Shown: piece by piece, positions 18,443-59,290 of the stretch
Layout of the letters: each line of letters begins with the position of its first letter
Position numbering within the stretch: the stretch's first letter is position 1
Origin: Stenotrophomonas maltophilia
GTDB taxonomy: Bacteria; Pseudomonadota; Gammaproteobacteria; Xanthomonadales; Xanthomonadaceae
Direction of reading: 5' to 3'
Length of the DNA: 64,000 nucleotides
Assembly: GCF_006970445.1 (NCBI RefSeq)
Contig: NZ_CP033877.1
Location: 2,178,750-2,242,749 of the forward strand
The notes under the pieces: generated by a model
What the model was told of the DNA's origin: nothing
The model's database searches: none
What the model saw: the letters and a program-made list of their open reading frames with translations, nothing else
Program-made: the position numbers and the translations under genes

Positions 18443-19192
18443 ATGATCTGTAATGTTTCGCGTGGCGTGCTGCTGGCCCTGATGGTCGCCTCCGCAGGCG
18501 CCGCCAATGCGGCATCGACTTCGCCGGTGTCGCTGATGAGCGCGGCCGAGCAGGCTTCTCTGATCGAAACCCGGTACTCGGCCGGTGATGGCGCGCCGGT
18601 CGCCGCGATGACCACCCGCTACTTTGCCAATGATGAGCTGTCGGTCAGCTGGGATGACCAGCAGGTGCTGGTGCTCTGCAAGGAAGCGGCGTACCTGAAG
18701 ATTCCCGCCGCCAAGCTGAAGGCCGGTGCGTTGACCACCGAGCAGCGGCAGATGATTACCTACCAGGCGGTGATGTCGGGGCTGGGGGCGATCGCAGCCG
18801 TGGCCGAAGCGGCCGGTGATGCGGTGATGGTGGCCGACGATGGCAGCGAGCTGCGCCGCACGGGTGAAAGCAATTGGGCCTACGGTGTGGAGCGGTATGA
18901 CGTCACCACCCAGCGCATGGCTGACGGCGCGCTGCGGGTGCGGGCGCGCAAGACCGAAACCGTGAACAACGCCAAGCCCGCTTCGCCGGATGATAGGTTC
19001 AGCACGGAGGATGATCAGGCGGCTCGCCTGTCCGAGCTGGCACCGGTGGGGAGCTGGACCGAGGCGTTGATCCACGGCGGCCCGCGCCAGGCGCAGGTGG
19101 ACCCGGCGATGTCGCTGAAGGGGTGGGTGTCGATGGCGGACGACCAGGCGGCGACCGTGGCTGAGGCGCGCAAGCTGCACGACTGCAAGTAG
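18443..19192 (+). CDS. Secreted protein of unknown function
   Basis: 249 residues with a signal peptide (LLALMVASAGAANA). The mature part has no motif I recognise; it has single cysteines near the middle (VLCKEA) and at the C-terminus (HDCK) and an acidic, alanine-rich helix region. It starts 63 bases after the ABC operon and may be a separate unit. Its codon use matches the neighbours, so it is probably a real gene. Function unknown. Confidence 0.75.
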   Translation: MICNVSRGVLLALMVASAGAANAASTSPVSLMSAAEQASLIETRYSAGDGAPVAAMTTRYFANDELSVSWDDQQVLVLCKEAAYLKIPAAKLKAGALTTEQRQMITYQAVMSGLGAIAAVAEAAGDAVMVADDGSELRRTGESNWAYGVERYDVTTQRMADGALRVRARKTETVNNAKPASPDDRFSTEDDQAARLSELAPVGSWTEALIHGGPRQAQVDPAMSLKGWVSMADDQAATVAEARKLHDCK

Positions 19193-19200
19193 TGCTGACA

Positions 19201-19241
19201 GGGGTCAGAGCCCTTTGCCCCAGGCAAAGGGATCCGACCCC
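19201..19241. repeat. Long interspersed palindrome
   Basis: GGGTCAGAGCCCTTTGCC is answered by GGCAAAGGGATCCGACCC, a stem of about 18 bp with two or three mismatches around a very short loop. It may end transcription of the preceding gene, but no T-tract follows. Only one copy is seen in the window. Confidence 0.7.
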
Positions 19242-19286
19242 GATCGTTGTCGGCCTCATCGTTCCATTTATGTGCGCAATATTCAC

Positions 19287-19314
19287 TTGCGCGCCAGATT
19301 GGCAGGTCTAGAAT
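19287..19314 (+). promoter_or_regulatory. Candidate promoter for the EF-G paralogue leader
   Basis: TTGCGC and TAGAAT are separated by 16 bases. If used, transcription would start around 19320-19322, at or just before the ATG of the 29-codon frame, which would make that frame nearly leaderless. Inference from sequence only. Confidence 0.4.
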
Positions 19315-19321
19315 GCGCCCC

Positions 19322-19411
19322 ATGAACCGGATGCCGCTCCTGAAGTATTTCACCCTGACCCGCGCAAGCGCGGAAAGGGCGTGTCTGCCTGGAGCCCCAC
19401 GAGGCCGTTGA
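19322..19411 (+). CDS. Putative 29-residue leader peptide before EF-G paralogue
   Basis: The frame begins MNRMPLLKYFTLTRASAERA and ends PRGR-stop. There is no Shine-Dalgarno, but a candidate -10 box lies only 8 bases upstream, so it could be translated from the very 5' end. Its stop codon sits in the loop of a 6-bp hairpin (19403-19418), and an intrinsic terminator follows. This order (short frame, hairpin at its stop, terminator, then a ribosome-acting GTPase) is that of a translation-sensing attenuator. Not proven; it could be a chance frame. Confidence 0.45.
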   Translation: MNRMPLLKYFTLTRASAERACLPGAPRGR

Positions 19412-19460
19412 GACGGCCATCGCTGGACCTTCGACAGAGCGCCCTCCGGGGCGCTCTTTT
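19403..19460 (+). terminator. Attenuator: hairpin over leader stop plus intrinsic terminator
   Basis: First hairpin GGCCGT-TGAG-ACGGCC (19403-19418), with the leader stop codon TGA starting its loop. Second hairpin AGAGCGCC-(6 nt)-GGCGCTCT (19436-19443 with 19450-19457), followed by TTTTCGTTT. The second is a convincing Rho-independent terminator located 147 bases before the EF-G start and on its strand, so transcription must read through it for expression. AGGGCG at 19376-19381 could pair with CGCCCT in the terminator arm as a weak alternative. Confidence 0.65.
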
Positions 19461-19513
19461 CGTTTCCGCAGTTCCATTCCCCGTAACCCGATGTACCGCA
19501 AGGAGAACGTGCC

Positions 19514-19575
19514 ATGCACCAGATCGCCGAGACCGAACGCTAGCCGCGCACCCTGTCGCCAACCGGGGTGCGCGG
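19514..19575 (+). promoter_or_regulatory. Nine-codon uORF with strong SD and downstream hairpin
   Basis: AAGGAG (19500-19505) stands 8 bases before an ATG that encodes MHQIAETER and stops at 19541-19543. Directly after the stop a perfect 10-bp hairpin begins: CCGCGCACCC (19544-19553) with GGGTGCGCGG (19566-19575). The EF-G gene itself has only a weak AGGA site. A second overlapping frame from the ATG at 19491 runs 39 codons and ends in TGA overlapping the EF-G ATG. Either could couple or gate EF-G translation. Confidence 0.5.
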
Positions 19576-19606
19576 CCCCTGGAGTTGGCTTTGCAGGAAC
19601 CTCTTT

Positions 19607-21643
19607 ATGAACACCCAGACCCTTTCCCGCCGTCGCAACCTCGGCATCATTGCCCACATCGACGCCGGCAAGACCACGTTGACCGAACGCCTGCTGTGGA
19701 AAAGCGGTGAAATCCACCGCGTCGGCGAAGTGCACGATGGCAATGCGACCACCGATTTCTCGGCGATCGAACGCGAGCGAGGCATCACCATCGGCGCGGC
19801 CGCCGTGCAGGCACAGTGGGCGCCGCGCGACCTGCCGCCGCATCGGCTGACCCTGATCGACACCCCCGGCCACATCGACTTCGCCATTGAAGTCGAGCGT
19901 TCGCTGCGCGTGCTCGACGGCGCCGTGGCGGTGTTCTCGGCCGTGGACGGCGTGCAGCCGCAGTCCGAGACGGTGTGGCGCCAGGCGCGTCGCCATCGTG
20001 TGCCGCTGATCGCTTTCGTCAACAAGATGGACCGTGTTGGCGCCTCGTTCGAGCGCGTGCTGGAGCAGCTGCAGGACAAGCTGCAGGCGCGGCCATGGGC
20101 GCTGGGCGTGCCGTTGGGTAGCGAAAGCGGCTTCAACGGCTGGGTCGATCTGGTCGATGAGCGCGTGCTGCACTGGCAGGACGGTGCAGCGACGATCGTC
20201 AGCGGGTGGGACGCCGCCGCGCGTGCACAGTGGCAACCGCAGCGCGATGCGCTGGTCGAAGCCGTGGCCGATCATGACGAACAACTGGCTGATGCCTGGC
20301 TGGAAGGTCGCGTGATCGATGCTGAACTGCTGCGCGCGGCGATCCGCCGGGCGACGCTGGCGGGTGCGGGCGTGCCTGTGCTGGCCGGCGCCGCCTTCAA
20401 GGACAAGGGCATCGAAACGCTGCTGGACGCAGTGGTCGATTACCTGCCGTCGCCGCTGGATCGGCCCGCCGTCAGCGCTGAAAGCGATGAGGGCGAGGTG
20501 GTGCTGCCGCCGGATCCGGAGGGTCCGCTGGCCGGCCTGCTGTTCAAGATCACCCACCAGCAGCACGGCGCGCTGAGCTTCGTGCGGCTGTACTCGGGCA
20601 CCTTGAAGGTGGGCGACGCGGTGGCCAGTTCGCAGCATCCGCACGGCCGGCGCGTCAGCCGGCTGGTGCGGGTGCAGGCCGACCAGACCCACGACATCGA
20701 ACAGGCCGTGGCCGGTGACATCGTCGCGGTGCTGGGCTGGAAGGATGCGGTCAGCGGTGAAACGCTGAGCGGGCGTGCGCAGCCGCTGCGCCTGGAGAAC
20801 ATCCAGGCACAGGCGCCGGTGCTGGCGTGGCGGTTGGAGCCGGCGCGTGCGGCCGACCTGATCCGGATGGCACAGGGACTGGCCAGCCTGGCCCAGGAAG
20901 ATCCCTCGTTCCGCGTCGAAACCGATCGCGACACGGCGGAGACCCTGGTCTGGGGCATGGGCGAGCTGCACCTGGAGGTGATGGTCGAGCGCCTGCGTAG
21001 CGAATGGAAGGTCGATGTGGGCGTGGGTGCGCCGCGCGTGGCCTACCAGGAGACGCCGATGCGTGCGATGACCGGCGTCGTCGGGCGGCTGGTCAAGCAG
21101 ACCGGTGGACAGGGCCAGTTCGCGCATGTGGTGCTGGATGTGTCGCCGCGCGAGGACGGCCAGGTGGTGTTCAACGACCGCATCGTCGGTGGCGTGGTGC
21201 CGCGCAGCTTCATCGCCGCGGTGGAGAAGGGTGTGCGTGCTGCGCTGTCGGAAGGCCCCCAGGGTCATCCGGTGGTCGGCATCGAGGTCAGTCTTGTCGA
21301 TGGCCAGACCCATGCCAAGGACTCTTCGGAGATGGCGTTCCATCGCGCGGGCGCCGAGGCGATCAAGGCGGCGCTGGCCGAGGGTGGCACGCAGCTGCTG
21401 GAGCCGGTGATGGCGGTGACGGTGCATTCGCCGTCAGCGTCGGTGGGCGATGTGGTTGGCGACCTCAACCGCCGCCATGGACGTATTGCCCGCATTGACG
21501 ATCAGGATGGTCGCGCCGAGGTCAGTGGCTTCGCACCGCTGGCGCAGCTGGTGGGTTACACCACGTCGCTGCGTTCGCTCAGCCAGGGCCGGGCCAGCAG
21601 TGAGGCGCACCTGCATGGCTACGAGCCGGTACGCGCGGCATGA
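19607..21643 (+). CDS. Elongation factor G paralogue (translational GTPase)
   Basis: 678 residues from the ATG before NTQTLSRRRNLGIIAHIDAG. Domain I has the P-loop AHIDAGKTT, switch I ERGITIGAA, DTPGHIDF and NKMD. Domain II (about 305-390), III (VETDRDTAETLVWGMGELHLEV), IV (TGGQGQFAHVVLDVSP) and V (MAVTVHSPSASVGDVVGDLNRRHG) follow. It is shorter than the essential EF-G of about 700 residues and is not in a str operon, so it is a second copy. EF-G catalyses translocation and recycling; paralogues can specialise or protect ribosomes, as Tet-type proteins do. The leader described upstream suggests induction by translation stress. The specific role is unknown. Confidence 0.88.
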   Translation: MNTQTLSRRRNLGIIAHIDAGKTTLTERLLWKSGEIHRVGEVHDGNATTDFSAIERERGITIGAAAVQAQWAPRDLPPHRLTLIDTPGHIDFAIEVERSLRVLDGAVAVFSAVDGVQPQSETVWRQARRHRVPLIAFVNKMDRVGASFERVLEQLQDKLQARPWALGVPLGSESGFNGWVDLVDERVLHWQDGAATIVSGWDAAARAQWQPQRDALVEAVADHDEQLADAWLEGRVIDAELLRAAIRRATLAGAGVPVLAGAAFKDKGIETLLDAVVDYLPSPLDRPAVSAESDEGEVVLPPDPEGPLAGLLFKITHQQHGALSFVRLYSGTLKVGDAVASSQHPHGRRVSRLVRVQADQTHDIEQAVAGDIVAVLGWKDAVSGETLSGRAQPLRLENIQAQAPVLAWRLEPARAADLIRMAQGLASLAQEDPSFRVETDRDTAETLVWGMGELHLEVMVERLRSEWKVDVGVGAPRVAYQETPMRAMTGVVGRLVKQTGGQGQFAHVVLDVSPREDGQVVFNDRIVGGVVPRSFIAAVEKGVRAALSEGPQGHPVVGIEVSLVDGQTHAKDSSEMAFHRAGAEAIKAALAEGGTQLLEPVMAVTVHSPSASVGDVVGDLNRRHGRIARIDDQDGRAEVSGFAPLAQLVGYTTSLRSLSQGRASSEAHLHGYEPVRAA

Positions 21644-59079: not shown

Positions 59080-59290
59080 TCTCCGTGCCACCGAAAACAG
59101 GTGGCCGGGATTCGAAACCCCGGTAGTTCGCTGAAGTAAACGCTTGCCAGCCGGCATCACCTGTGTGATGCCGGCTGGCAATCCGTCGGCCGGCTATGGC
59201 GGGCGGTGCGTGGGGGCCTTGTGCCCACCGGGCCAAGTCGCGTACCGGATTTCGAGCCACGCACCGTCCGCCACCTTTATCGGTGGCGGC
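59080..59290 (+). ncRNA. Structured leader or small RNA before an unknown gene
   Basis: Three hairpins in a row: CCGGG...CCCGG around ATTCGAAAC (about 59106-59124), a perfect 17-bp stem TTGCCAGCCGGCATCAC-CTGT-GTGATGCCGGCTGGCAA (59144-59181), and CCGCCACC...GGTGGCGG with a TTTATC loop (about 59265-59287). The last is followed by CTTCTGCATGCACGCAAGGAG and the next gene. The layout recalls phage C4-type antisense RNA leaders, but I cannot test this. The interval 58924-59317 has no other gene. Confidence 0.35.

Follow-up and report, generated by a model that had tools for sequence, protein, structure and literature searches.

A second elongation factor G gene in Stenotrophomonas maltophilia lies behind a two-part leader proposed to be read by the ribosome

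In a 64,000-nucleotide stretch of Stenotrophomonas maltophilia DNA (the window; all positions are counted along its forward strand), a gene for a second elongation factor G (EF-G), fusA2, lies behind a leader that carries two short open reading frames (ORF1 and ORF2), an intrinsic terminator and several RNA pairings. We propose that the ribosome reads this leader as an attenuator, which induces a spare and probably drug-insensitive EF-G when EF-G activity falls, and that a second, translation-coupled RNA switch follows the first; we put the probability of this reading at about 0.7. It is carried by comparative evidence: the frames and the terminator, the complementarity and covariation of an antiterminator, the covariation of a hairpin (A) after ORF2, the conservation of a pairing (B:B') in front of the gene, the protein family and the residues of the argyrin pocket.

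In the proposed model, RNA polymerase would make ORF1, which would be translated without a Shine-Dalgarno (SD) sequence. With EF-G plentiful, the ribosome would reach the middle of ORF1 and cover an arm there, termed region 2, so that the terminator would form and transcription would stop. When translocation is slow, because EF-G is lost or is inhibited by a drug such as argyrin, the ribosome would be held within roughly the first dozen codons of ORF1, and region 2 would pair with the 5' arm of the terminator, allowing the polymerase to read through. In the second step, a ribosome completing ORF2 would open hairpin A, whose loop sequence, B, would then be free to bind B' immediately before the gene's SD; this would probably promote fusA2 translation. 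FusA2, with its altered argyrin pocket, would then restore translocation and damp its own induction. We infer all of these dynamic steps, as well as the ON direction of the second step, the drug insensitivity of FusA2 and the feedback.

A function of FusA2 in argyrin resistance is already known, and the leader offers a mechanism for it, namely a concrete route to the FusA2 overexpression reported upon fusA1 loss in S. maltophilia. If the model is true, the bacterium would gauge EF-G activity itself and swap in a less drug-sensitive copy. That the arrangement is conserved across Xanthomonadales and in part of the Burkholderiales would be in keeping with natural exposure to inhibitors of EF-G, and the leader, taken with the pocket tryptophan described below, could serve as a practical marker of such spare EF-Gs. 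A published account of the fusA2 leader was not found in the literature searched, which was covered by titles and abstract openings and has most subscription journals outside its range.

The second EF-G and its argyrin pocket

The fusA2 gene (19607..21643, ATG at 19607) encodes a protein of 678 amino acids with all the EF-G domains (Pfam GTP_EFTU, EF-G domains 2, III and IV, and EFG_C). Its score of 740 bits against the EF-G family TIGR00484 (cut-off 659.4) places it among the EF-Gs and bears out a first-pass annotation of the locus, which had described an EF-G paralogue behind a two-part leader. The best homologue cluster is 98% identical and named elongation factor G of S. maltophilia, and wherever a 120-row homologue listing gives a source name, it is some version of ‘elongation factor G’. 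A quick tree of 39 EF-Gs places the paralogues of Xanthomonadales and Burkholderiales in one group (13 rows, Shimodaira-Hasegawa-like approximate likelihood ratio support, SH-aLRT, of 99), separate from canonical EF-Gs and from an EF-G paralogue of Streptomyces. The canonical EF-G of the 4.55-Mb genome, encoded near the EF-Tu gene, is 47% identical to the fusA2 product, and no third full-length EF-G was found in the genome.

In a 2017 study of S. maltophilia, Jones et al. reportedly observed strong upregulation of fusA2 when fusA1 is lost. Because the genome holds only two full-length EF-G genes, the window gene should be the one so named, and it is almost certainly the FusA2 of the S. maltophilia argyrin reports. 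Passages of PMC6902895 state that argyrin resistance in this species arose by fusA1 inactivation together with FusA2 overexpression, a result attributed there to Jones et al. (2017, Antimicrobial Agents and Chemotherapy, AAC, e02400-16); these passages name no mechanism for the overexpression. Since the resistant bacteria combined these two changes, loss of EF-G function is the likeliest trigger of the leader.

The residues that line the argyrin pocket set the paralogue apart. We compared 172 paralogue rows (the window, 51 loci and 120 homologues from a listing that includes fragments, with some proteins counted twice; by type, 156 Xanthomonadales, 15 Burkholderiales and the window) with 69 canonical-like rows. 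At the position of Pseudomonas aeruginosa Ser459, tryptophan is present in 172/172 paralogue rows and in 0/69 canonical-like rows, where the residue is Ser (48), Ala (15), Gly (2), Arg (2), Gln (1) or Glu (1). The Tyr683 position is Ser or Ala in 170/172 paralogue rows (the other 2 are gaps) versus 2/69 canonical-like rows. Fourteen positions are strictly group-specific in the paralogue, among them three at and near the Ser459 site in domain III, and two on either side of the Phe in the DFT motif of switch II. Both S459F and Y683C are among the argyrin B resistance substitutions given in passages of PMC3438169, where the dissociation constant of S459F EF-G1 is described as not measurable. These altered residues are what would be expected of an argyrin-insensitive spare EF-G, and FusA2 is probably drug-insensitive, or poorly bound by argyrin-type inhibitors.

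A fusA2 orthologue was found in 69/91 genomes of the genus, the window's own included (71 matches, of which G079 and G012 were dropped as having canonical EF-G only). In samples of the family and the order, which overlap with each other and with that of the genus, it occurs in 52/297 genomes (6/54 genera) and 42/299 genomes (6/85 genera), respectively, and a more distant relative is present in 14/245 genomes from the family of Massilia. This patchy spread suggests both loss and transfer of the paralogue; no match was found in the plasmid collection searched. A phylum-wide search with the Massilia protein matched 76/398 genomes, mostly through canonical EF-G by the scores, and was uninformative.

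The first frame and the terminator

Our comparison covers 140 distinct leaders of orthologous genes, 68 of Stenotrophomonas type (window included), 43 of Xanthomonas/Lysobacter type, 15 of Luteibacter type and 14 from Burkholderiales. Left out were identical leaders (L009, for example, duplicates L103) and that of G077, whose gene lies at a contig end. Nine seed peptides from the same loci served to find ORF1 by similarity, and an SD was required for ORF2, so the count of SDs before ORF2 is partly by construction. Both short frames, on whose conservation the first-pass annotation had staked its proposal, are kept, ORF1 in 140/140 leaders and ORF2 in 139/140. The leader without ORF2, L224, is missing all of element 2, as we term ORF2 and its structures, and is outside the element-2 counts below; because it lost the second element and kept the first, with ORF1, terminator and gene retained, the two are separable modules. 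Direct reading and folding confirm ORF1, the terminator, the SD of ORF2, ORF2 itself and a 10-bp hairpin where they had been annotated. The antiterminator inside ORF1 and the pairing of a loop with the ribosome binding site region in element 2 are additions of the present analysis.

ORF1 (19322..19411, 29 codons, MNRMPLLKYFTLTRASAERACLPGAPRGR) has no SD and is predicted to be leaderless here, its ATG lying 7 nt after the -10 box of a candidate promoter (19287..19314; -35 TTGCGC at 19287-19292, 16-nt spacer, -10 TAGAAT at 19309-19314). This promoter is where the annotation had put it, yet its -35 box is weak, and a consensus scan at 9/12 did not pick it up. A promoter-like pair (>=7/12, that is, at least 7 matches) whose -10 box precedes the ORF1 ATG by 6-7 nt occurs in 43/68 Stenotrophomonas and 7/14 Burkholderiales loci, and a leaderless first frame is therefore predicted in those; in the remaining loci the predicted 5' end is longer, or no promoter match reaches the threshold used. 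An SD-like 4-mer before ORF1 is absent in 134/140 leaders (Stenotrophomonas 68/68, Xanthomonas/Lysobacter 43/43, Luteibacter 11/15, Burkholderiales 12/14). Over the eight codons from PLL on, the ratio of nonsynonymous to synonymous substitution rates (dN/dS) in Stenotrophomonas is 0.43 for the ORF1 frame, and 1.77 and 0.88 when the other two frames are read. The ORF1 peptides diverge strongly between clades, and the frames seem to count for more than the peptides in this leader.

Downstream of ORF1 stands an intrinsic terminator (19436..19463; stem 19436-19457, -19.2 kcal/mol, followed by a T-tract), identified by terminator scan and folding and present in 140/140 leaders. A scan of 18900-19900 returned two terminator-like sites, this one and another in element 2, against 0.7 expected. 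Its 5' arm, region 3, pairs alternatively with region 4 or with region 2, an antiterminator arm inside ORF1 (19376..19387, AGGGCGTGTCTG; duplex with the terminator 5' arm -17.6 kcal/mol). In 137/140 leaders ORF1 contains a sequence that can pair, G-U pairs allowed, with the whole core of the terminator 5' arm, which is 5-6 bases long. The pairing covaries between clades: GGGCGY:GCGCCC in 64 leaders, mostly of Stenotrophomonas, GGGTGC:GCACCC in 54, mostly of Xanthomonas, Lysobacter and Luteibacter types, and GGGCC:GGCCC in 13, mostly of Burkholderiales. The leader thus has the parts of a ribosome-mediated attenuator, a leader frame ahead of an intrinsic terminator and a mutually exclusive antiterminator with covariation.

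Two further hairpins touch ORF1. One lies within it (regions 1:2, 19353..19379; core CCGCGC-AA-GCGCGG at 19360-19373, extended by CCCT:AGGG; -13.9 kcal/mol), precedes or overlaps the antiterminator arm and competes with the antiterminator; its core is conserved in the alignment fold, and Burkholderiales show changes on both sides. At one Burkholderiales locus, L189, the pairing is kept, by eye, with a quite different AT-rich sequence, and region 2 there is without the clade's GGGCC motif. The other hairpin sits over the ORF1 stop (19403..19418, GGCCGT-TGAG-ACGGCC, -9.2 kcal/mol), with a loop-closing pair that is T-A in the window and C-G in L090. It was recognised in S. maltophilia-type rows and, as an analogous stem, in Luteibacter-type rows, and not in the other clades, so that the expectation of conserved hairpins with compensatory changes fails for this stem and holds for the hairpin after ORF2.

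The effect of ribosome position was modelled by folding partial transcripts that end at the terminator loop, before its 3' arm is made, with codons masked as by a ribosome. Averaged over the 140 leaders, the antiterminator has a probability of 0.92 when codons 4-8 are masked, against 0.44 for codons 17-22. It falls by more than 0.1 as the ribosome advances in 129/140 leaders and rises in one; in the window leader it stays at 0.97-0.98 while the ribosome is on codons 2-12 and is 0.64-0.65 for codon 13 and beyond. On this folding profile, a ribosome stalled early would favour read-through and an advancing one termination, and the first step of the leader may be regarded as a terminator/antiterminator switch governed by ribosome position.

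No Rfam family matched the leader at its gathering score. The best sub-threshold match, RF02869 (ncS25; 28.3 bits, cut-off 46), is seen in the window and in 0/13 other loci (E limit 0.1 for nine of them and 0.5 for four), and we judge it a chance match; passages of PMC5688073 list ncS25 as a candidate small RNA in its own right in Burkholderia cenocepacia.

The second frame and its RNA structure

ORF2 (19514..19543) has nine codons, MHQIAETER, and a strong SD, AAGGAG (19500..19505), of which GGAGAA is invariant in a 15-leader sample. Directly after its stop begins the 10-bp hairpin A:A' (19544..19575, CCGCGCACCC / GGGTGCGCGG), whose loop holds B, GCCAAC (19558..19563). The complement of B, B' (GTTGGC, 19584..19589), lies 4 nt upstream of CAGGAAC, the SD-like sequence of fusA2 (19594..19600), and B and B' could pair as a pseudoknot or as an alternative hairpin; the loop lengths in Xanthomonadales would presumably allow the pseudoknot, and in Burkholderiales the two element-2 pairings look mutually exclusive. 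The loop of a conserved hairpin thus has its complement a short way before the gene's SD, as in repZ of IncI-type plasmids. The first-pass annotation had also listed a third frame (19491..19609) whose TGA overlaps the fusA2 ATG. It is present in the window, and because its phase stays open beyond the start of ORF2 in no more than 36/68 Stenotrophomonas loci (31 not, 1 not parsed), it is probably a chance frame. Nor does ORF2 appear to be read through into fusA2: the frame is open past the stop in the window and, by eye, out of frame or stopped in close relatives.

The placement of the ORF2 stop is kept. In 109/111 Stenotrophomonas/Xanthomonas/Lysobacter-type loci it occupies one of two places: in 87 of them it sits immediately 5' of arm A, and in the other 22 it falls within the loop, where it shares the first base of B. 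A terminating ribosome would therefore cover arm A. At loci such as L132-L146 (paralogue ~77-79% identical to that of the window, and S. rhizophila-like on that measure), Trp replaces the stop after codon 9, and ORF2 ends five codons on at a UAG that overlaps B; both stop positions put the ribosome over the hairpin.

Hairpin A shows compensatory change. In the 15-leader alignment both sides have changed in 6/10 pairs, giving 15 such cells against a shuffle mean of 4.4 (0/500 shuffles as high), and hairpin A and helix B together have 97.5% of cells paired. A fixed-register count over 110/111 rows (L177 was not parsed) gives 31 distinct arm pairs and 27 cells changed on both sides, against a shuffle mean of 8.9 and maximum of 18. 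B:B' is GCCAAC/GTTGGC exactly in 107/111 loci of the same three types. Luteibacter and Burkholderiales have counterparts of different sequence in a similar layout (GCCAGGGGC/GCCCCTGGC and GGTGGTCG/CGACCGCC, respectively), and a hairpin arm at or around the ORF2 stop, all by eye; in some rows of this layout the EF-G start is mis-chosen, and the hairpin A and B:B' counts are independent of start choice. From this arrangement we infer that translation of ORF2 may free B to pair with B' and so aid fusA2 translation.

When the genome was searched with a covariance model built on element 2, a single match (104.7 bits) was convincing. The next match, L261 at 26.2 bits, lies inside coding sequence and was set aside. 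The model reaches L177 (33.3 bits) and gives weak matches at most in Luteibacter and Burkholderiales rows.

Weighing the model against alternatives and known systems

Several observations weigh against the model we prefer, at each of its steps. At the first, the modelled drop in antiterminator probability in the window leader is only from 0.98 to 0.64; with no ribosome at all the antiterminator already reaches a mean probability of 0.79 (window leader, 0.82), so an untranslated leader would read through; and the profile of Burkholderiales is flat at about 0.4. Significance of the antiterminator in single sequences is modest, p<0.05 being reached in 28/58 sampled leaders, with 3/14 for Stenotrophomonas and 0/14 for Burkholderiales. 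Selection on codons is weak in ORF1 as a whole (dN/dS of 0.69 for Stenotrophomonas and 1.06 for the larger Xanthomonas/Lysobacter set) and weak or absent in ORF2 (1.53, 0.72, 0.67 and 0.39 in four clades). In element 2, further pair types in the helices are no more numerous than in shuffles (297/500), and B:B' is almost constant across the 15 leaders sampled, which leaves covariation nothing to say about this pairing. In folds with the gene start chosen by SD, a ribosome at the ORF2 stop changes the unpaired probability of the gene SD from 0.52 to 0.56 in Stenotrophomonas, and from 0.54 to 0.61 and 0.39 to 0.46 in two other clades. Because a ribosome on ORF2 barely opens the gene SD, step 2 is left without a clear gate. 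SD openness in Burkholderiales rises moderately, from 0.60 to 0.79, and openness of the fusA2 AUG there falls from 0.49 to 0.24. As for the protein, passages of PMC3438169 report that S459F mutants are still partially sensitive and that the matching change in human mEF-G1 has a marginal effect. Since the S459F mutants kept partial sensitivity, Trp at this position need not mean full insensitivity.

These openness values also bear on what kind of switch element 2 might be. An erm/cat-type translational attenuator, in which the structure sequesters the gene SD, is not clearly supported by these folds: frame and hairpin are present, and openness of the SD is little changed in three clades and moderately in Burkholderiales. 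Of the two-step attenuator that had been annotated, the transcriptional step is supported by a terminator pairing that covaries, and the second does not visibly hide the SD of the gene.

The alternative that fares best is that the leader responds to translation stress in general, so that any elongation block, by macrolide-type drugs or amino-acid shortage, would stall ribosomes on ORF1, the argyrin link would be incidental and the paralogue would serve slow translation of any cause. In the folding model ribosome position alone decides, and any early stall would induce; moreover, the ORF1 peptides differ much between clades. A K/R-x-K/R motif, which we take to be a macrolide-stall motif, occurs somewhere in 114/140 of them (RVR in Xanthomonas/Lysobacter types, for example). 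In the S. maltophilia complex, however, the motif appears for the most part as an RGR at the C-terminus, beyond region 2, and the core reads RAC. Three equal residues in a row, as an amino-acid sensor might show, occur in 6/140 peptides and are not shared within clades; the proposal that the gene is induced by an antibiotic or by amino-acid shortage thus gains from the argyrin report on its first count and finds no shared codon run for its second. The paralogue is also an EF-G, one whose argyrin pocket is invariantly altered, rather than a ribosome-protection factor, and its overexpression is reported alongside fusA1 inactivation. We consider a general stress response possible, with the balance of evidence tilted against it.

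Somewhat less probable, in our view, is that step 1 alone regulates and that ORF2 with A:A' and B:B' forms an mRNA-stabilising or ribosome-standby structure that ensures good fusA2 translation. The gene SD is not clearly gated, and L224 does without element 2 while having step 1 and the gene, both as this alternative would have it. Yet an insulator would not need the start, SD and stop-to-hairpin position of ORF2 that are kept in Stenotrophomonas/Xanthomonas/Lysobacter-type rows, nor the hairpin arm that Luteibacter and Burkholderiales have, by eye, at the ORF2 stop or near it. It is very unlikely that a protein, or the ribosome itself, binds element 2, as in autoregulation by FusA2, with the short frames incidental: the near-invariant loop GCCAAC and the strongly conserved SD-to-start spacer exceed what pairing needs, but the sequences of Luteibacter and Burkholderiales are altogether different under a similar layout of pairings, and frame and stop placement are conserved.

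Within the ribosome-read attenuator that we favour, it is tempting to speculate that the leader acts as an EF-G homeostat, the SD-less ORF1 sensing slow translocation and the ORF2 stop, set against hairpin A, sensing slow ribosome recycling, so that only a cell short of EF-G would pass both gates. This extension, in which the leader would read both EF-G tasks one after the other, is unlikely.

Among known systems, leaders of the trp and his type combine a leader frame with a competing antiterminator and an intrinsic terminator, and ribosome position decides between them. The fusA2 leader has the same three parts; unlike them, it is without a regulatory amino-acid run, its ORF1 is SD-less and predicted leaderless, it controls a translation factor, and a second short frame and structure stand before the gene. 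The closest parallel may be the auxiliary antibiotic-resistant tryptophanyl-tRNA synthetase of Streptomyces, which is reportedly a spare, drug-insensitive copy induced via ribosome-mediated attenuation. It shares with the arrangement proposed here a drug-insensitive spare of an essential translation component under attenuation, and differs in that fusA2 encodes an EF-G rather than a synthetase, behind a two-step leader, in a different phylum and with no codon-specific sensor. Tet(M)-type ribosome protection genes, which the first-pass annotation had invoked, are controlled by leader attenuation and, like fusA2, are translational GTPase genes behind a short frame and terminator. The product of fusA2 is an EF-G and scores 374 bits against NCBIfam tet_protect, below the cut-off of 775, and the parallel does not extend to the protein.

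In repZ of IncI-type plasmids, a leader peptide controls activation by a pseudoknot, within replication control by antisense RNA. There, as we propose for the opening at fusA2, a small frame opens a hairpin whose loop pairs just upstream of the SD of the main gene; at fusA2 the frame precedes the hairpin, and the activating direction is our suggestion. Two EF-Gs that differ in drug sensitivity and task, EF-G1A and EF-G1B, are described for P. aeruginosa in passages of PMC3832671 as 84% identical; the fusA2 product, at 47% identity to canonical EF-G, forms a group of its own in the tree.

Streptomyces has a different EF-G paralogue (L044, L057, L263-L282; 69/150 genomes), which falls outside the fusA2 group. 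A conserved short frame lies upstream of it in 18/21 loci, of ~38 codons where the full start was read and with the core VILVS..xRCPLRGRHR; Streptomyces thus apparently has an independent EF-G copy behind a leader frame.

Elsewhere in the window, a GC-rich imperfect palindrome at 19201-19241, upstream of the promoter, resembles what we take to be the SMAG/REP repeats of Stenotrophomonas, and varied related palindromes are seen by eye at this place in close relatives. A match to the Rfam C4 antisense RNA (RF01695, 56.7 bits), presumably a phage-type immunity RNA, lies at 59192-59278 and suggests prophage remains in the window.

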